From NCBI GenBank assembly GCA_030054735.1, contig JASGVX010000099.1:1-33888 (forward strand): DNA of 33,888 nucleotides. The letters are read 5' to 3'. The notes beneath the pieces were generated by a model. It was not told where the DNA came from, made no database searches, and saw only the letters and a program-made list of their open reading frames with translations. The DNA is from Methanobacteriota archaeon (lineage in GTDB: Archaea; Halobacteriota; Methanosarcinia; Methanosarcinales; Methanosarcinaceae). Of this stretch, positions 6,139 through 21,545 are shown piece by piece (within the stretch, counting starts at the first letter, position 1; the number at the start of each line of letters is the position of its first letter). The translations under genes and the position numbers were made by a program.

Positions 6139-6621
6139 TCATTCAGATGACTCTTTTTCTTTAAGATATCTTACCCAATCTCCATGCTCAATTACTGCAG
6201 TTTCGGGTTTTTCATCATAAACATAAATAAAACCCCTTATTTTCTGATGTTCTATTTCAATGTCCACATATTCCCTGTGGTACCCGCCAAAAAGTTCCAT
6301 GTAATCAATGGATTTTGCAACCTCAAGCTGCTCTTTTCCTGAAAACCTGCGCACTTCTGCAACTACAGAACTGTCATCAACAGGGTAGACAGCCGGGTAA
6401 GGGCCCAGGGGGTAGAGGGCATATCCGTGGATTCTTGTCATCCCCAGAAAGTCCGACCTGTTTGCTAGGTTTAAGCGCCGATTGTTATACAATCCATTTC
6501 TGAGGCTGCCGTAAAGTGCCATTACGATTACTTCGCCTTCCACTATTTCATAAGAACGCTGCCAGCAAACATTCCTGTGAAAGACCCTGCCGTAAAGATT
6601 CCTATCTGTCCCCTGAGCCAT
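6139..6621 (-). CDS. Gamma-glutamylcyclotransferase / AIG2-like fold protein
   Basis: Protein of 160 residues with the GGCT signature: substrate loop YGSLR (37-41), a conserved Asp/Glu region SIDYMELFGGYHREYVDIE with the likely catalytic Glu at 109, and closing strand GFIYVY. The family releases 5-oxoproline from gamma-glutamyl compounds, but many members have unknown substrates. The family usually starts two or three residues before the first strand; here about 32 extra N-terminal residues precede it. An internal ATG at codon 34 is possible, but AAGAAGGAAAAG lies just upstream of codon 1 and supports the longer form. It is on the minus strand, 167 bp downstream of the GTPase-like gene. Confidence 0.8.
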   Translation of the reverse strand: MAQGTDRNLYGRVFHRNVCWQRSYEIVEGEVIVMALYGSLRNGLYNNRRLNLANRSDFLGMTRIHGYALYPLGPYPAVYPVDDSSVVAEVRRFSGKEQLEVAKSIDYMELFGGYHREYVDIEIEHQKIRGFIYVYDEKPETAVIEHGDWVRYLKEKESSE

Positions 6622-6726: not shown

Positions 6727-6790
6727 GTTTTAAGTTTATCTTGTTTTAAGTTTATCTTGCTTTAAGTTTATCTTGCTTTAAGTTTATCTT
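6727..6790 (+). repeat. Four 16-bp tandem repeats overlapping a stop codon
   Basis: GTTTTAAGTTTATCTT twice and GCTTTAAGTTTATCTT twice, exactly contiguous. The last unit overlaps the TAA stop of the minus-strand GTPase-like gene at 6789-6791. Confidence 0.9.
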
Positions 6791-7841
6791 ATTTTGAAAA
6801 ACCGCATGCTGCAAAGCGCTGGGTCAGGTCAAGATTTGCGAGCAGGAAACGGTCTTCTTTGCTGTAGGCAAGCTTTTTGTTTCCAGAAAGTTCCAGTACG
6901 CAGGTAGTTCCAGGCTTTGCTTCTTTTACCACATTTCCGTCAACCAGGATTTTTTCAACGCGCACAGGTTCGGACTGAATCCCAACAAAAAGGTGAAGCA
7001 CACTTGCAGGCTCTATTTTTTTAGTAAATTTTGAGATTGTGCATTCCAGGGTATAATCAGTAGTTAAGATTTCTTTATTTGAAATAATAAAGCCCCTCTC
7101 TATTTCCTTTGCCTGGACATTTTTAAGGCGCATCCCTACCCTTGTACCGTTTGGGGCTTCGGTGATGTCTACATCATGGCTCTGGATCGAGCGGATTTCA
7201 ATGTCTCTGTCCAGCGGGAAAATTTTAGTCTTATCCTTTTCCTTTGAGATGCCTTGCTTGACAACTCCGAGGACAACACAGCCTTTGCCTGTCACATTGA
7301 AAGCGTGGTCTATAAAGACTCTTGCAGGCAGATTATTAAGTTCAGCCTGTTCAGCTTCTATTTTCTCTGCCATCCCATATATTCTGGCTTTTAGGTCTTC
7401 CACGCCTTCAAAGGGGTTCTTTGAGCTTTTATTTGTGTTAAGGGAAATAAACTCCCAGTCCTGAAGTGTAGTTCCTGCAGTGATTACTTTTAACTTTGCT
7501 TTCAGCTCATCAATCGCATGAATGTGCGTGCTGTCCGATTTTGTCAGGGCAATAATTCCATGTTTAAATCCGAGCATGTCCAGCGCAATGATACATTCCC
7601 CGGTGTGGGCGTCCAGACCCTGAGGAGGAATGCACAGGACTGCAAGGTCGGAAATATTCAGTGCCGTAATCAGGGATTTAAGAGTTTTCGGATAGGTGTG
7701 AGCATCCACAAAAACCATCTTACGGCTTTCCTTATCGTTGTTATACATTGTTATATCGGAGTAAGTTCCTTTTTTCCCGAGATTTGCGGCAAGGGAAGTC
7801 CTGCCGCTTTTTTCTGTCCCTATAATTGCAACATTTACCAT
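6789..7841 (-). CDS. EF-Tu/SelB-like protein with degenerate GTPase motifs
   Basis: Protein of 350 residues with a translational-GTPase layout: G domain (about 1-165), then beta-barrel domains 2 and 3. I chose the ATG at 7841 because AAAAGGGGA precedes it; an ATG eight codons upstream has no such site and the family begins at MxNVAIIG. The G1 loop reads GTEKSGRT (8-15), with Arg for the invariant Lys. The G3 DxxG loop is replaced by VDAHTYP (45-51). G4 is TKSD (100-103). Canonical GTP hydrolysis is therefore doubtful. Proteins like this are annotated as EF-Tu domain 2 proteins in methanogens. The role is unknown; a tRNA, translation-factor or regulatory function is inference. Confidence 0.8.
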   Translation of the reverse strand: MVNVAIIGTEKSGRTSLAANLGKKGTYSDITMYNNDKESRKMVFVDAHTYPKTLKSLITALNISDLAVLCIPPQGLDAHTGECIIALDMLGFKHGIIALTKSDSTHIHAIDELKAKLKVITAGTTLQDWEFISLNTNKSSKNPFEGVEDLKARIYGMAEKIEAEQAELNNLPARVFIDHAFNVTGKGCVVLGVVKQGISKEKDKTKIFPLDRDIEIRSIQSHDVDITEAPNGTRVGMRLKNVQAKEIERGFIISNKEILTTDYTLECTISKFTKKIEPASVLHLFVGIQSEPVRVEKILVDGNVVKEAKPGTTCVLELSGNKKLAYSKEDRFLLANLDLTQRFAACGFSK

Positions 7842-8352: not shown

Positions 8353-9525
8353 TCACCAGAGCTCTCCTTCCCAGATTGCCTGAGTTTTATCACTGGTGCT
8401 TTTATTGACCTTTTTGATGTTTATAAGGTACTCGTTTCCTACAGGCTGCGGTGTTTCGAAGATAGCATCCACTCCAAGCCTTTTGAGGTAATTCGCGAAT
8501 TCTGTTGCAGTTTTCGGGTTCTTTACCCGGATCCTAACCTCTTCATAGAGCCTCTGTCCATTCTTTACAGTCCTGATTGAATCTCTCAGTGGGTTCAGTA
8601 TGCTTTCTCCAAGCTGTATGCAGCGCTTTTTGAACTCAGCTTCATCTTCATCCCATTCTACTGTCTGGAAACCTTCTCTAACAATTCTGGAGAGCATGTA
8701 ATCCCGGCCTGCTTCATTGTAGAACTTGAAGGCGTGCCTGAGGTCAGAAAAGTTGTTCTGGGACGAGGTATATTTCAGGGGAGGAAGAAGCATTTCAGGG
8801 TCCTTAATCACTACACCTTCGTGCCCGGTTTTCCCCAGCTCCCGGATGATGTCTGCGATTTCTTTTGGGGCGTTTTCCAGGGGAACTTCTCCAAAGGACC
8901 TCACCTGCAAAAAGCCGTATTTTTCCATCATCTTCCGCCTTTTTGACGTGGGCAGAGGTTTGCCTGTGTTTTTTTCCCGGATATCGAAAATATAGAACTC
9001 CACAGACTCTATACCGTAGATTTCTTTTGGGACATAAGGGTTATCCGGGCCTACCATTTCCCCGTAGAGCACAAGCTCCGGGAAATCGTCAAAAAACTTC
9101 AGGTTCAGTTTCACGTTTGTCCTTTCAGTTGTGTAAGGGCAGACATAGCCGCTCCGTGTGATTGCTAGGATATTGCCTTTTACATTTGCAACCCTTACGT
9201 TATACCCGTTCATTTTTTCTTCAACAGCTACCTTTTCAAGCCCGTTGAAATGTTTTTTTAGAGTGGGATCCAGCACCATTGCTCTCCTTATTTTGGGAAA
9301 GCCCATAATTACCTCAAAAGAATCTCCTTTTTCATAAAGCACTGTCCCTCTTTCTATGCGGGAAACTTCTTTGTCGAAGCGGAACAAATATTCATGCTTT
9401 CCCCAGTTCCTGGCAAGATAGTTTTTTTCAAAAAGCTGTTGAACTCTTCCTCCATCGGACCCCAAAAAACCAGCCAGCTGTGCAAGAAAGTCAGGACCTA
9501 TTTCTCCATTTTCCCCTTTATTCAT
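8353..9525 (-). CDS. ATP-dependent RNA ligase, archaeal Rnl3 (Pab1020) family
   Basis: Nucleotidyltransferase of 390 residues matching the archaeal homodimeric RNA ligases typified by Pyrococcus abyssi Pab1020 and Methanothermobacter MthRnl. Motif I is EEKMNGYNVRV with the adenylated Lys at 104. Motif III is YGEMVG (154-159), motif IIIa VEFYIFDIR, motif IV HEGVVIKDP and motif V LKYTS. The C-terminal region that forms the dimer and extra domain in Pab1020 is present, so the protein looks complete. No good ribosome binding site precedes ATG, so a leaderless transcript is possible. These enzymes ligate and circularise single-stranded RNA in vitro; the cellular role is unclear. KptA and RtcA lie about 11 kb away. 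Confidence 0.92.
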   Translation of the reverse strand: MNKGENGEIGPDFLAQLAGFLGSDGGRVQQLFEKNYLARNWGKHEYLFRFDKEVSRIERGTVLYEKGDSFEVIMGFPKIRRAMVLDPTLKKHFNGLEKVAVEEKMNGYNVRVANVKGNILAITRSGYVCPYTTERTNVKLNLKFFDDFPELVLYGEMVGPDNPYVPKEIYGIESVEFYIFDIREKNTGKPLPTSKRRKMMEKYGFLQVRSFGEVPLENAPKEIADIIRELGKTGHEGVVIKDPEMLLPPLKYTSSQNNFSDLRHAFKFYNEAGRDYMLSRIVREGFQTVEWDEDEAEFKKRCIQLGESILNPLRDSIRTVKNGQRLYEEVRIRVKNPKTATEFANYLKRLGVDAIFETPQPVGNEYLINIKKVNKSTSDKTQAIWEGELW

Positions 9526-10998: not shown

Positions 10999-11775
10999 TC
11001 ATTCCTGAATTGTGTTTATGACGTTCCTGCGTGCGAGGAAACCAACGAGTTCTTCTTCCAGATTGAGGACAGGAACGCCTCCCACATCGTGTTCTAGCAT
11101 GCTATTAACCGCATCTGAAAGAGGGGTATTGGTGTGCACACTGACCACATTGCGGGTCATAATATCTCCAACAAGCAGGTTCTTGATTCTGGAGTCCTGA
11201 TGGTTGTCAGCTACCAGATCCCTGAAAGAACGCATCGCAAAAGCGATATCATCTTCTGCAATGATTCCTACAAGTTTTCCGTTTTCAATTACCGGCAATC
11301 TTCCCACATTTTTATCAAGGATGAGGCGTCTGGCGTGGCTTACACGGTCTGAAGGGCTGATAGTGATCGGGTTTTTTTCCATTATTTCCCCGACAAAGCC
11401 TGTGAAACGGTTTATTTTCATGAACTCCTGAGGGGTCACCCAGCCCATTGCGTTTCCATTATCACTGACAATGATCACGCCCCCTTTATTTTTCATAAGG
11501 ATAAGGGCATCTTTAATGTCAGTGTCTGGTAAAACCTTTACAAAATTGTCGGATATGGCTGTTGCAACATGCAAAGAGGATGCTGGTTTGCTCTTTTTCC
11601 TGCGAGTTCCAAGTTGCTCTGTCAGACTTCTCATGGTAAGCACTCCGAGTACCTGGTTGTCATTGACTACAAGCAGACGCTTTGTGTCTTTCTTTTCCAT
11701 GATATCAAGGGCGTGAGATATGGTTTCTGACTTATTAATCCTGTGTGGTTGTACCATTATGTCTTTAACTTGCAT
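10999..11775 (-). CDS. CBS-domain protein 1 (four CBS motifs)
   Basis: Protein of 258 residues made only of CBS motifs, paired as two Bateman modules. The motifs lie around [56 protein letters not shown] and [18 protein letters not shown]. Such modules bind adenosyl compounds (ATP, ADP, AMP, S-adenosylmethionine) and usually regulate a partner, but no effector domain is attached. The start is ambiguous: GTG at 11784 is in frame, but GAGGTG overlaps it and is well placed as ribosome binding site for the ATG at 11775, which I prefer. It is the last gene of a four-gene minus-strand series, each separated by about 0.3-0.6 kb, so probably with separate promoters. Confidence 0.88.
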
Positions 11776-12097
11776 GCATTTCACCTCATGCGTATCCAGA
11801 ATTTTAATTTTTAATTCTTCACAGTTTTCGTTATTATAGACGTTCTTGCATTTTTACAGACTTTAATACATCCATTTTTCCAAGTTTTATTTGCATCCTT
11901 CTTTTGCTTCAGCGTTCCTCTTTTTGTTCTTTTTACCGTATATACCGTAATACGTGCTGTCGTGGATTTGCTATCATAATTAATTTTACCTTTTTAAAGG
12001 TGCTTTGCTCCTCTTTTATTCTCAATGTTACTGTAATTATGTTCCCAATCCACTTTTAGAGTATCCTTTGTAGGATACGGCTTTTATAATATCCTTT
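11776..12097. other. Intergenic region between CBS genes 1 and 2
   Basis: About 320 bp, T-rich on the plus strand. TACCGTATATACCGTAATACGTG (near 11935-11958) is a short repeated TACCGTA motif, and its minus-strand reading contains TATA-like TATATACGG. AGAGTATCCTTTGTAGGATACGGC near 12058 contains GTATCC/GGATAC, a small dyad. No gene is supported. Confidence 0.4.
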
Positions 12098-12943
12098 TCA
12101 GAGCACGGCTTTCATAATGTCGGTCCTGCTCAGTATTCCTACTATTTCTTCATTTTCACTGACAGGCAGGGCAGTCATTCCTTCTTCAATCAATTTTTTT
12201 GCAGCATTGCTAACGTTCTCGTTTATATCAATGGACATTATTGGAGAAACCATGATGTCTTCTGCTGTTAGGGGCACTTCTTTCACGTACCTGTAAGTTT
12301 TCTGACCTCCAGGTGAGGACTTCCGTGTCATCTTAATACTTTTTGTTGAAAGTTTGCCTTCGTTATCAGTTAAGAGATTTAAGGCAATGCTTCTCCTCGA
12401 AATCAGTCCAACAAGTTTTCCTGAATCGTCTTTAACGATTACTCTCTCAATCTCATTTTTATTCAGTTCATCTATGACGTGGTTGATTGTGTGGTGCCTG
12501 TGAACAGAAACAACATCTTTGGTCATCAGTCTGGAGATCTTGGTTTCTATTTCATCTTCATGTTCTGCAACATAGCGCACGATATCTGTCATGGTAACAA
12601 TACCTATGATATCGTTTTTTACCACCGGAATGTTATGTACCCTGTTCTCAAGCATCAAGGCGACTGCCTGGGAAATGGAGGCCTCGGGATAAATGGTGAT
12701 TACGGAATCAGTCATCAGCAACTTGATAGGGATCTGGTCTATCGGTCGTCTCCTCCAGAGAGGTTCAGCCTGAGCTAGGCGGTTTGTGATGTCTGATTTC
12801 GTGACTATTCCCACCATTTTTTCCTTGTTGAGAACAAGCAATGTACTGATTCTGTGTCTTAACATCAGATTTCTTGCATATGACACGGGTTCATCTACGT
12901 TAATAACGTACACAGGTGAACTCATGATGCCCGCCACATTCAT
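12098..12943 (-). CDS. CBS-domain protein 2 (four CBS motifs)
   Basis: Protein of 281 residues with four CBS motifs: [56 protein letters not shown] and [20 protein letters not shown] 40-residue basic linker (about 190-225, with [19 protein letters not shown]) separates the third and fourth, so the second Bateman module is spread out compared with its neighbours. ATGAAGGAGGTATTC before ATG gives a strong ribosome binding site and fixes the start. There is no attached enzyme, transporter or DNA-binding domain, so it is presumably a nucleotide-sensing regulator of an unknown partner. Confidence 0.9.
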
Positions 12944-13524
12944 TGAATACCTCCTTCATTTTTACAGTATATATATTAATAATTATAGTTTTTGAATTAA
13001 GTGTAAATTTTGAAATTTTTATTGTAAACTTTCCTTTAAATTTCAATATTTTATCAACATCGGCCGTTCTTTTTAAATTATATTCTTTTTAATTTACATT
13101 AAGAAATCATGATAATAAATCATGATACAAGTATGGAGTTACAGGCTGATCAGGAAGTATGCTGGTTGAAGAGAATTTGTCTTCATAATTTGTCTTTAAA
13201 ATTGTATTAAAGGAATATCTAAGGAACTTTTCTGAACCTTTATTTAAGACCAGCTATGCTCAAAGATACATAGATCACTAGAATACAGATTTTATTCTGG
13301 TCTGTCCAGCTAAGAAGTTTACCTCTTTGCACCTTTTTATGAAGTTGAACCCGGATTTCATTTTATGGATTCTTCGGGTTCATTCTGGTTTATCGGTTCT
13401 GGTCTGATTTAACAGAAATTTTTCTGATTCAACAGAAATTTTTCTGATTCAACTGAAGATTTCATGGTTTAGCAGGGTCTTTTCCAGTTTACCATGGTTT
13501 TTATTGACCTTATTTAAACTCCTA
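12944..13524. other. Intergenic region between CBS genes 2 and 3
   Basis: About 580 bp. AT-rich promoter-like DNA lies upstream of CBS gene 2 (12960-13090, with TATATATTAATAATTATAG). A degenerate 20-bp tandem repeat lies at 13404-13463. The rest shows no gene, RNA or element that I recognise. Confidence 0.45.
13404..13463 (+). repeat. 20-bp tandem repeat near the 3' end of CBS gene 3
   Basis: CTGATTTAACAGAAATTTTT, CTGATTCAACAGAAATTTTT, then a degenerate CTGATTCAACTGAAGATTTC. About 60 bp beyond the CBS gene 3 stop. Confidence 0.75.
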
Positions 13525-14526
13525 TTAAAAGTCAAAAGCTCGCAGGAAATCACTCTCTGTAATAATACCGCATAGCATTCCATCTTCCAGAACAGGAAGT
13601 GAACCTATCTTTTTCTCGAGCATGATTTCCATAGCCTCCCCCATATCTGTGCTAGGGCTGGTCCAGATCAGTTCTTTTGAAACAATAGATCCTACAGGCT
13701 GGTCCAGAGCCTCACGAATATTCCCTGTTGTGAGTTTGCTGAACGCATCCCCTCTCCCAAGGAAATGAACAATATCAGTGGCAGTAACTATTCCCGCAAA
13801 GATCCCGTCCTTTACCACAGGAAGCCTTCGGAATCTGTTCTCTACCATTATTTTTGCTGCCTGTCCTATAGTAGAATCTGTTGTTACCATTATGACATTT
13901 TTGGTCATATATTCATCAACAGTTTTATTTGTCACAGGTCCGCCCATCAGTTCCACGGCGTTTCTTTCAGTAAATATTGCGACGACCTGCATTTCATTGT
14001 TTACTATAGGCAGGCCTCCCGTCTCCCTTTCAAGCATTGTTTTAACGGCTTCCTTGAAATCTGCCTGATCATAGATGTATGCAACATCAGTATCCATGAT
14101 CTGCCGTACTTCTTCATTTATTGCAGCCAGAAGGTTGCCTTTGAAGCGGTTTGTGACAAGGAGGTTTCTTTTGCCGCCTCCCAGGAAATCAATGATATCT
14201 ACAGTAGTAATTACCCCTTCCAGTCTCCTTGTTCCTGCGTCTGTGATAGGGATACGCCTGAATTTTCTTTCAGTCATAATCTTTATTGCATCCATGATGG
14301 TTGCAGTGGGAGGGAGAGTTACTACATTTCTTGTAGCGAGAGCAAGAATTTTTCCCTCATGTGCTGAAATTCGGGATTTAAAATCAGGGCCAAATCTCAT
14401 TGTGCCCATGCTGCTGACCATCTGTGGATCTTTTTTCTGTGGTTTTTTGCTTGATTTGTTCACTTTTGGCTGAACATTCTTCTTTTCGACTGGTACAAAT
14501 GACTTATTTTTGCTCAATAGGATCAC
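13525..14526 (-). CDS. CBS-domain protein 3 (four CBS motifs, basic N-terminal extension)
   Basis: Protein of up to 333 residues. A lysine-rich, probably disordered N-terminus of about 60 residues ([19 protein letters not shown]) is followed by four CBS motifs: [57 protein letters not shown] and [19 protein letters not shown]. The annotated start is GTG at 14526. GGTGATCC, complementary to the end of 16S rRNA, ends two bases before an in-frame TTG at 14517, so TTG may be the real start, three codons shorter. The basic tail could contact nucleic acid or a membrane; this is speculation. Partner unknown. Confidence 0.88.
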
Positions 14527-14817
14527 CGAATCGAGTTGCAGTTAATTGTTTTTTCTTCTTCAGCTTTTCTTCTTCCGTTTTTCATCTACCTGCATTTCGC
14601 AGAAATTTCTCATGAGGCATGAATCGCAGCCTCAGAACCTTGGTTAGTGTTGGAGACAGACAAAGCCCTGAAGCAATCTTTTCTCGAATCTTTCTTAACA
14701 CTTATTCTTTTAACATTTACTCTTATTTGCCGATCTGTAATCTTTATTAATTGTAATCTTTAATTGTTATAATCCTTTTGTGTGAGAACATAACTTTTAT
14801 TTTCTTGTGCCTCAGGA

Positions 14818-15612
14818 TTAGTCATTCCATCCTTTAACTATGGCCTCCAGAAGATCTTGCCTATCAACGATCCCAGATATTTTGCCCTGCTCATTTACTA
14901 CAGTAACTCTTCCTATATCGCGCTGGACAATCATTTTAATAGCATTTCTGATGGAATCATTCTCTGAAAGAGTATAAACGGGAGTGGACATAATCTTCTC
15001 AACTTTGGGACTTTCGTTTGGCCTTGTTGCCCGTTCGTCTTCTACGGACATTCTTAAAATGCCTGATTTAATTATGTCCCTTCTTGTTATCATTCCAATA
15101 GGGTCCTCTTTCTTTGAAATTACTGGAATGCCGGTATAATCTGTTTCTATCATATAGTTCCAGATCTTGGAGACCCTTTCATCTGGAAAACAGGTTTTGA
15201 CTTTTTTAGTCATAATGGCTTCTATTGTTTTCGAAGTGCTTTTGGGGAGTTCCACGTTCCTGAGAATATCCACATCACTGAGAATTCCCACGACCAAACG
15301 GTCTGTTGTTGATTTGACAACCGGAACCCTGTTCTGTTTCGATTGCACCATCAATTTTGCAGCTTTCACAACATCCATATCCGGAGTGACTGTCGGGGAC
15401 TGCCTTGCATACCCACCAACCGTGACATCCGAACGTGTGGACGTAATCCTCATGATATCCTGGTCATTTAGCATTCCAACAAGCCTGTTTCCTTCATCAA
15501 CAACAACAACACCCCGAAGGAAGTGGTCACGCATCAGCTGACGGGCACGAGTTGCAAATTCTCCTTCTTTGATACTTACAGGCTTATTTGTCATAATCTC
15601 GCTGACATTCAT
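14818..15612 (-). CDS. CBS-domain protein 4 (four CBS motifs)
   Basis: Protein of 264 residues with two Bateman modules: [56 protein letters not shown] and [35 protein letters not shown] before ATG is a strong ribosome binding site. It is the first gene of the minus-strand CBS series. About 70 bp upstream lies a double insertion of small mobile elements, beyond which a decayed further CBS gene is found. As with its neighbours, no effector domain is fused. Confidence 0.9.
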
Positions 15613-19797: not shown

Positions 19798-20421
19798 ATG
19801 ATTCGAAAATGCACTGATCACGGCTATTTTAGAGGAGGCAGCTGTCAGCAGTGTAAACGCCCTGGTAGATACGTGCTTGACGACAGCAGAGAGGAAAAGC
19901 TTGGCAGGTTCGTATCGGGTACTCTTCGGCACTTTCCGGCATCGGTAGGGGTTAATATGGATATGTGCGGCTGGGTGGACCTTAATGATTTCTGCGAGGT
20001 TATGAAAAGGCGTTATAACTGGATGAGAAAAGAATATCTTTATGCCCTTGTAGAGTCCGATGAAAAGGGAAGATATCAGATCAGCGGGTCCATGATCAGA
20101 GCGCGTTATGGACATTCAGTTAATGTTGACCTTGACTATGAAGAAAGTGATACTCCGTATGTGTATTATGGGGCAAGTCCTGAGGAAGTCGACGTCCTGC
20201 TTGAGAATGGAATTTTCCCTATCAAACAGCGCTATGTACATCTCAGTACTACATATGAAAAGGCAGCTGAAGTTGCCCAGATTCATACTGAAAACCCTGT
20301 GATCTTGCAGGTTGATGCCTTTAGAGCTCAGGACGATGGAATTTCCCTAAAGCTTGCAACGGATTACATAGTACTTGCAGAAGAGATACCTCCAGAGTAC
20401 CTGATTGTACTCGAGGACTAA
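19798..20421 (+). CDS. kptA: RNA 2'-phosphotransferase (Tpt1/KptA family) with N-terminal zinc-binding motif
   Basis: Enzyme of 207 residues that transfers an internal RNA 2'-phosphate to NAD+, giving ADP-ribose 1'',2''-cyclic phosphate and nicotinamide. Family landmarks are LRHFPASVG (43-51), IRARYGHSVNVDL, the NAD-site VYYGAS, and RYVHLSTTYEKAAEV. The N-terminus has CTDHGYFRGGSCQQC, a C-x2-H-x7-C-x2-C pattern (Cys5, His8, Cys16, Cys19) that would bind zinc and is absent from the short bacterial KptA. ATG lies about 30 bp after a TATA-like sequence, so the mRNA may be leaderless. It is convergent with rtcA, 62 bp apart. What makes 2'-phosphate ends in archaea is an open question. Confidence 0.93.
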   Translation: MIRKCTDHGYFRGGSCQQCKRPGRYVLDDSREEKLGRFVSGTLRHFPASVGVNMDMCGWVDLNDFCEVMKRRYNWMRKEYLYALVESDEKGRYQISGSMIRARYGHSVNVDLDYEESDTPYVYYGASPEEVDVLLENGIFPIKQRYVHLSTTYEKAAEVAQIHTENPVILQVDAFRAQDDGISLKLATDYIVLAEEIPPEYLIVLED

Positions 20422-20483: not shown

Positions 20484-21545
20484 TCAGTCTACCGATACTT
20501 CAAAAAGGCCTTCTTTTTCTTTTATCCTGAACTTAACACCTAGAAACTGCTCTGTGACCCAGATATTTGTTGCGGCATGCGGTGTCAGCTCTCGGACTGT
20601 GTAGGAACTGTTGCCTGCAAGTGCCATATATGGGATTAACTGGTCTGCCAGATACATATCCACAGCAGCTCCTGCTTTGAGTTCTGCAATAATTTCTTCT
20701 GCAGCGCGCTTGCCTACTTTCTCAGCAGGCAGCCCCTTCTCTCCAGGAGCGCTTCCCCCATAGTAACCAGTCCAGAGAGTTATCCCGCTTCCTGTGGAAA
20801 AAAATTCACAGGATCGGACATCAATCTGGGAAGCATATCCAGCTTCAAGAAGAAGGGATTTAGCAGCTTCTGCCTGGCGAGATGGCACATGGTCCGGAAG
20901 GTTCGATGCATGTGATAATCCCATGATTTTTTCCTTCTCGCTCGGCCCTCCTTTCAAACCTTCTCCATCTGTCAGTTTTTCCCCTGTGCTTTTATTTTCT
21001 TCAGTCTCCTGAAAATGAAAACCACGTATCTTGCATGGTTCAAAAACAGCTGAGACATTTCCTCCTCCCCTGGGATAGTAGCCGCGTTCTTCAAGGGTTA
21101 CACTTCCCGCATATCCAAACTGTTCAAGTGCCCTGAGAGTTATATGCTGCAGGTAGTCTATTGTTGGAGACCAGGCAACGTCAGTCCCACCTCTAATTAT
21201 TAACTCGACCTTTTCTTTTGCAAAAGGCAGGGCTGGCATAATGCATTGCAAAAGCAGAGTAATGCTTCCTGCGGTTCCGATATCAATATTATACTTTCCC
21301 CCCTTTATTTCCACTGGAGCAAAATATAACTCCTTAGAACCTGGAAAAAGACCTGAAACCCGTGCTCTGCAGATCTTTGCTGCAGTTTCCAGAGCTTTAA
21401 GGTGCTGCTGTTTCAGGCCTGGATTTGGCCTGTTTTTCCTTATATTCGTAATCTTTATTTCTTCTCCAGTAACTGAAGAAAGGGCAACAGCGGTTCTGAC
21501 TACTTGCCCGCCTCCTTCTCCATAAGAACCGTCAATTTCTATCAT
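20484..21545 (-). CDS. rtcA: RNA 3'-terminal phosphate cyclase
   Basis: RtcA converts RNA 3'-phosphate to a 2',3'-cyclic phosphate with ATP, via a covalent histidyl-AMP. Length 353, slightly over the usual 340. Visible landmarks are the N-terminal IDGSYGEGGGQVVRTAVALS, IRKNRPNPGLKQQH, DIGTAGSITLLLQ, RGYYPRGGG, SHASNLPDHV and the C-terminal ELTPHAATNIW whose His323 should be the adenylated residue. A hydrophilic insertion at about 179-206 (TEENKSTGEKLTDGEGLKGG) precedes the SHASNLP motif and accounts for the extra length. The gene ends toward kptA. Codons 76-82 contain a 19-base exact match to the ORB at 16451. Confidence 0.95.
   Translation of the reverse strand: MIEIDGSYGEGGGQVVRTAVALSSVTGEEIKITNIRKNRPNPGLKQQHLKALETAAKICRARVSGLFPGSKELYFAPVEIKGGKYNIDIGTAGSITLLLQCIMPALPFAKEKVELIIRGGTDVAWSPTIDYLQHITLRALEQFGYAGSVTLEERGYYPRGGGNVSAVFEPCKIRGFHFQETEENKSTGEKLTDGEGLKGGPSEKEKIMGLSHASNLPDHVPSRQAEAAKSLLLEAGYASQIDVRSCEFFSTGSGITLWTGYYGGSAPGEKGLPAEKVGKRAAEEIIAELKAGAAVDMYLADQLIPYMALAGNSSYTVRELTPHAATNIWVTEQFLGVKFRIKEKEGLFEVSVD
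21297..21319 (-). other. ORB-identical sequence inside rtcA
   Basis: The minus strand reads CTCCAGTGGAAATAAAGGGG. Nineteen bases are identical to the box at 16451-16473. Here it codes for PVEIKG in RtcA. Binding by Cdc6 is possible by sequence but not shown; chance convergence with a coding constraint is the alternative. Confidence 0.4.

Follow-up and report, generated by a model that had tools for sequence, protein, structure and literature searches.

What a protein built like a translational GTPase does when its GTPase motifs depart from the consensus is the question raised by this locus. The window (the whole stretch of DNA analysed, 33,888 nucleotides from a Methanosarcinaceae genome) encodes such a protein on its minus strand, in a frame that opens with an ATG at 7841 and whose stop codon ends at 6789; a TTG start 24 nt further upstream would add 8 residues, but the ATG is favoured by the end-to-end agreement of the translation with a Methanosarcina mazei protein, MM1309. 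The gene and its parts are:

6789..7841, minus strand: predicted aSelBL / aEF-X coding sequence, 350 amino acids plus stop (translation; full-length match to MM1309)
7797..7820, minus strand: G1 / P-loop, residues 8-15, GTEKSGRT, with Arg14 for Lys (translation)
7689..7706, minus strand: G3 region, residues 46-51, DAHTYP, without DxxG and with Tyr50 for the catalytic His (translation)
7533..7544, minus strand: G4, residues 100-103, TKSD (translation)
7335..7841, minus strand: domain 1 (G domain), residues 1-169 (boundaries from MM1309, PMC4329189, and a gap-free alignment)
7071..7334, minus strand: domain 2, residues 170-257, with the aminoacyl pocket D178, H179, F181, L191, R234 (PMC4329189; conservation; Pfam GTP_EFTU_D2 at 188-253)
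6792..7070, minus strand: domain 3, residues 258-350, with no SelB domain IV after it (PMC4329189; the translation ends at residue 350)

Pfam by itself cannot name this protein with confidence, since GTP_EFTU_D2 matches with 27.7 bits (E 3.7e-06) and GTP_EFTU with 20.1 bits (E 5.3e-04), each under its gathering score. The identification comes instead from the sequences of solved structures, among which the top phmmer match, 3wnb_A, covers residues 1-350 without gaps (E 2.8e-209), far above chance. The entry is titled 'Protein translation elongation factor 1A' and belongs with 3WNC and 3WND to the crystal structures of M. mazei MM1309 (PMC4329189); judged by sequence, the window gene is thus orthologous to aSelBL (also called aEF-X, formerly EF-Pyl) and represents it in Methanosarcina. 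This family was named aSelBL in 2011 and described as having disrupted G1 and G3 motifs, as having lost the catalytic His and domain IV, and as conserving tRNA and ribosome sites, with Cys-tRNA proposed as the ligand (PMC3037878); in 2015 the name aEF-X was introduced and Arg14 and Tyr50 of MM1309 were highlighted (PMC4329189). The window protein shares with MM1309 both of these residues, the three domains and the lack of domain IV, and differs from it at residue 49 (Thr vs Ser), residue 27 (Tyr vs Ser), in G4 (TKSD vs TRSD) and otherwise by scattered substitutions. It is, in short, an ordinary orthologue with nothing unusual beyond the published family. Earlier readings of the P-loop substitution, and of TKSD and the EF-Tu-like barrels as retained, are borne out by the translation, the domain matches and the MM1309 alignment.

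Two better-known factors are related to it. Archaeal SelB (4ac9_A, an MJ0495-like protein) is the second phmmer match (E 1.3e-26) and can be aligned through domains 1-3 (residues 23-347), the DH of its aminoacyl pocket among them. Window residue 23 stands opposite SelB residue 56, which would agree with the deletion of some 15 residues from the G domain that sets aSelBL apart from aSelB, although this pair is also where the local alignment begins. The window protein nevertheless ends after 350 residues, whereas 4ac9 has 482 and is aligned up to 386, and it lacks domain IV, the catalytic His and regular G1 and G3 motifs. EF1A and EF-Tu share the three-domain EF1 architecture, and over residues 24-253 the window protein is 27% identical to a putative EF1A that its genome encodes in a frame of 422 codons; unlike these factors, it does not have intact GTPase motifs and scores far under the EF-Tu and EF-1 alpha cut-offs. 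A selenocysteine factor was also considered, the best NCBIfam match being selB TIGR00475 (E 5.6e-36), and was rejected: the score of 124 bits does not reach the cut-off (242), and the protein has neither intact G1 and G3 motifs nor the catalytic His. Neither tRNA-Sec (best 39.1 bits, cut-off 47) nor SelD (best 101.6, cut-off 125) reaches threshold in the genome itself, and such sub-threshold matches occur in control genomes too. True SelB is encountered elsewhere in the phylum: in family f35, single frames of 706 and 720 residues (L175:583-2703 in genome G378 and L176:424-2586 in G370) fuse an L-seryl-tRNA(Sec) kinase (PSTK) part, under its own cut-off, to a SelB part over its cut-off. In both of these genomes tRNA-Sec exceeds its cut-off. 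SelD does so in G378, where it lies about 2.3 kb away from the fusion, and falls short in G370. PSTK-SelB fusions are known from Bathyarchaeota and one Archaeoglobus (PMC8762117, PMC9499178).

How far the motif deviations belong to the family can be asked of orthologues drawn from the same class and phylum as the window. They comprise 136 distinct full-length proteins, or 135 once L030, which ends at a contig edge, is removed; 114 of them retain G1, and in the other 21 (22 with L030) it is deleted. Two partial loci (L159, L106) and the two SelB fusions, matched over their SelB part, were left out. Changes were counted on a tree of 113 of the 135 sequences (thinned at 95% identity, columns 14, 49 and 179 omitted), a quick build with no mixture model on which change numbers are minima and which, given its long branches, chiefly those of G1-deleted proteins, is used for these counts only.

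At position 14 the 114 G1-retaining proteins have Arg (85) or Lys (29) and never anything else, with at least five switches between the two on the tree; the named loci, which lean to near relatives as the best 80 of 286, give a similar picture in the 78 that entered the set (L085 and L106 out), with Arg14 in 57, Lys14 in 21 and Tyr50 in 78/78. The DxxG motif, absent from the window protein as the earlier note had observed, is not generally missing: D46 is found in 112/114, G49 in 87/114 and both in 85/114, with at least five changes of G49 on the tree. Gly49 is lacking in 22 of 30 Methanosarcina/Methanimicrococcus sequences on the tree and kept in eight Methanosarcina sequences of one subclade (DPHGYP, DSHGYP and similar), and many other genera have DATGYP or DANGYP; its loss is therefore a trait of much of this clade and not of the family. 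Lys14 and DxxG even occur together in 29/114 (for example in Methanolobus profundi, L124, and Methanococcoides vulcani, L109), so that orthologues with intact G1 and G3, whose existence the earlier note regarded as incompatible with its reading, do exist. What is constant is the replacement of the catalytic His by Tyr50, His50 being found in 0/135. As all 114 have Tyr50, GTP would accordingly still not be hydrolysed in the usual way.

The site nevertheless looks maintained for binding. T100 and D103 are invariant (114/114), and ten nucleotide-contact columns, adapted from PMC4329189 where residue numbering in the text is not uniform, average 0.57 bits of entropy, compared with 1.21 bits across domain 1; 64 of 20,000 random sets reached so low a value. 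Together with the restriction of residue 14 to Arg or Lys, this fits a site selected for nucleotide binding. The nucleotide motifs had been called disabled in the earlier note; as regards binding this does not stand, because MM1309 is reported to bind GTP with a Kd of 0.43 uM (GDP 26.2, GMPPNP 222.2 uM) and its Arg14 to touch the beta and gamma phosphates (PMC4329189). The suspected loss of GTP hydrolysis agrees with the same report, in which no GTPase activity was detected in an assay without ribosomes (PMC4329189).

The tRNA-adaptor idea is likewise already in print: the M. mazei orthologue binds aminoacyl-tRNA, and the half-life of Cys-tRNACys, the only aminoacyl-tRNA described as tested in the text consulted, rises from about 80 min without MM1309 to about 300 min with it (PMC4329189). 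Taking together orthology to MM1309, its Kd values, its lack of GTPase activity without ribosomes and the protection of Cys-tRNACys with the Arg/Lys-only residue 14, the conserved contact columns, the absence of His50, an invariant pocket and purifying constraint on the window gene (dN/dS 0.05-0.11 against 7 orthologues), we consider that aSelBL is probably a GTP-loaded, hydrolysis-incompetent holder of aminoacyl-tRNA, by the published assay Cys-tRNACys. Binding of GTP would shift the protein towards a closed form competent to bind tRNA; the aminoacyl end would be seated in the pocket between domains 1 and 2, and the tRNA would be released without need of GTP hydrolysis. We infer that in the cell tRNA binding is gated by GTP, Cys is the amino acid actually carried and the charged tRNA is protected or channelled. 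Some observations run against this. No GTP-dependent conformational change was seen, the reported structures of MM1309 with GMPPNP, GDP or no nucleotide being nearly identical (PMC4329189). Nor can GTP be indispensable throughout the family, because the 21 G1-deleted proteins (residues 13-14 deleted in 21/21, D46 in 0/21) keep the tRNA-pocket residues without the nucleotide site.

The most serious alternative, possible although we doubt it, is a non-canonical elongation factor that brings aminoacyl-tRNA to the ribosome, either independently of GTP or with a ribosome-activated hydrolysis through Tyr50. The ribosome patches of domain 2 are reported as conserved (PMC3037878), the published GTPase test lacked ribosomes and Tyr50-Pro51 is fixed in 114/114 G1-retaining proteins; on the other side, the catalytic His is absent from every sampled protein, and Tyr50-Pro51 also persists in 19/21 proteins whose P-loop is deleted, showing that it is not conserved for catalysis alone. 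Pro51 is reported to contact Arg342 (PMC4329189), which is about equally conserved (114/114, and His in 2 of the others) and so points to domain packing. The persistence of Tyr50-Pro51 without a P-loop would favour a packing or tRNA role. Among P-loop-less relatives, L172 and L174 (genomes G414 and G259) have Asp-Lys aligned at this position. That the protein regulates a true elongation factor, as the earlier note also suggested, found nothing in its favour.

The aminoacyl-tRNA holder reading also rests on the pocket, where D178, F181, L191, Q220, R234 and R249 are invariant (135/135). Residue 179, the position of the His in the selenol pocket of aSelB, is less constant: the Asp and His of that pocket were described as universal, His being absent only in Sulfolobales and M. 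acidiphilum (PMC3037878), whereas our set of orthologues has Gln there in 44/114 G1-retaining proteins, for example in Methanolobus, Methanococcoides and Methanohalophilus, with at least five His/Gln changes on the tree. Pocket residue 27 takes ten different identities among the 114 (Tyr in the window, Ser in M. mazei). The two observations weaken a strictly Cys-specific pocket without refuting it. The genome encodes CysRS (473 bits), SepRS (770 bits) and SepCysS (633 bits), all above cut-off, so Cys-tRNACys could in principle form by both routes. Co-distribution with SepCysS, tried as support for the Cys-tRNA idea by comparing the lists by eye, proved uninformative: family by family, the two overlap broadly in the phylum, but SepCysS is also strong in genomes where the aSelBL profile reaches EF1A level only (for example G263, G268, G221 and G230), which counts against a Cys role, and one metagenome-assembled genome (G282, 89% complete) has a clear aSelBL (1.9e-160) and a weak SepCysS match (3.5e-10).

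The neighbourhood raises a further possibility. The adjacent genes are:

8353..9525, minus strand: putative Pab1020-type ATP-dependent RNA ligase, upstream, 511 nt before the aSelBL start (TIGR01209, 399 bits, cut-off 137)
6139..6621, minus strand: GGACT (gamma-glutamyl cyclotransferase, AIG2-like) protein, downstream (PF06094, 60 bits)

The upstream neighbour was called a DNA ligase in 2011 (PMC3037878); by family score it is an RNA ligase, with PF18330 Lig_C and PF09414 RNA_ligase above the gathering score and the PF01068 DNA ligase domain weaker (33 bits). The GGACT protein is the first same-strand downstream gene in 46 of 149 loci analysed. Window-wide, KptA/Tpt1 2'-phosphotransferase (19798-20421, plus strand) and RNA 3'-phosphate cyclase, RtcA (20484-21545, minus strand), both about 12 kb from aSelBL, lie with the RNA ligase within about 13 kb, perhaps as a dispersed RNA repair set. 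Four same-strand proteins with four CBS domains each (10999-15612, minus strand) are also present, and in many loci of Methanosarcinaceae matches to the three tested precede the ligase and aSelBL genes.

aSelBL could then be a partner of the ligase, acting for instance on tRNA or RNA ends in RNA repair or circularisation, which we regard as unlikely. In 47 of the 77 named loci that could be assessed (3 of 80 being too short), a ligase match precedes aSelBL on its strand by at most 900 nt, with about 60 nt between the matched ligase and aSelBL segments in many non-Methanosarcina genera, and RNA-end enzymes such as KptA and RtcA are at hand in the window. No ligase was found there in the other 30 loci by tblastn with the window ligase, a search that a diverged ligase could escape, and the neighbours in these differ by lineage; the 511-nt gap in the window, moreover, leaves room for a separate promoter. 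With little more confidence, we speculate that (i), G1-retaining aSelBLs are switchless GTP sensors that clamp Cys-tRNA only at high GTP:GDP, given a published Kd ratio of about 60 (PMC4329189); (ii), Arg14 and Lys14 would be interchangeable as only phosphate binding is selected; (iii), Tyr50-Pro51 would be a domain lock and not a catalytic element; and (iv), in Methanosarcinaceae the protein would act jointly with the upstream Pab1020-type ligase, keeping charged tRNA out of RNA-end repair or passing damaged tRNA to it.

Distribution bears on the remaining alternatives. A pyrrolysine factor (EF-Pyl) fits the occurrence of the protein in Methanosarcinaceae, which use pyrrolysine (PMC3037878), and is very improbable, being contradicted by the published structure, whose pocket is too small for the pyrrolysyl group (PMC4329189), and by a distribution reported as broader than that of PylRS (PMC4329189, PMC3037878); we too find aSelBL in several families of the phylum besides that of the window. 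The tallies of aSelBL-profile matches (196/199 and 259/392) include EF1A and are not aSelBL counts. Two genomes of the class, a genus mate (G063, 99% complete, 140 contigs) and a single-contig assembly (G118, 94% complete), have matches at EF1A level only, so that loss of aSelBL seems tolerated, with assembly gaps possible in both, and this apparent dispensability counts against the holder reading. Decay into a functionless pseudo-GTPase, suggested by the off-consensus G motifs and these two absences, is scarcely credible against the purifying constraint and the greater conservation of the nucleotide-contact and tRNA-pocket columns. Three loci labelled Methanophagales (L101, L103, L107), apparently from genomes of family f11, have a G1-retaining aSelBL; on the tree they group as a single starred clade, surrounded by sequences of the ANME-2 and GoM-Arc1 types. 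Many other genomes of that family, among those listed, are at EF1A level only; gene transfer and binning error are both possible.

The window thus re-discovers a known family, and the note's title and tRNA-adaptor hypothesis are already covered by PMC3037878 and PMC4329189. A 2015 superfamily survey gave the function of aSelBL as unknown (PMC4342817), and in the literature searched, which covered few subscription journals, we found no later functional study and no established cellular role for a protein that is widespread in methanogens. The comparison does correct the picture of this family: its constant lesion is Tyr50 in place of the catalytic His, many members carry Gln where the selenol pocket has His, the DNA ligase neighbour is by family score an RNA ligase, and orthologues with the standard Lys14 and DxxG are available for a direct comparison of hydrolysis.
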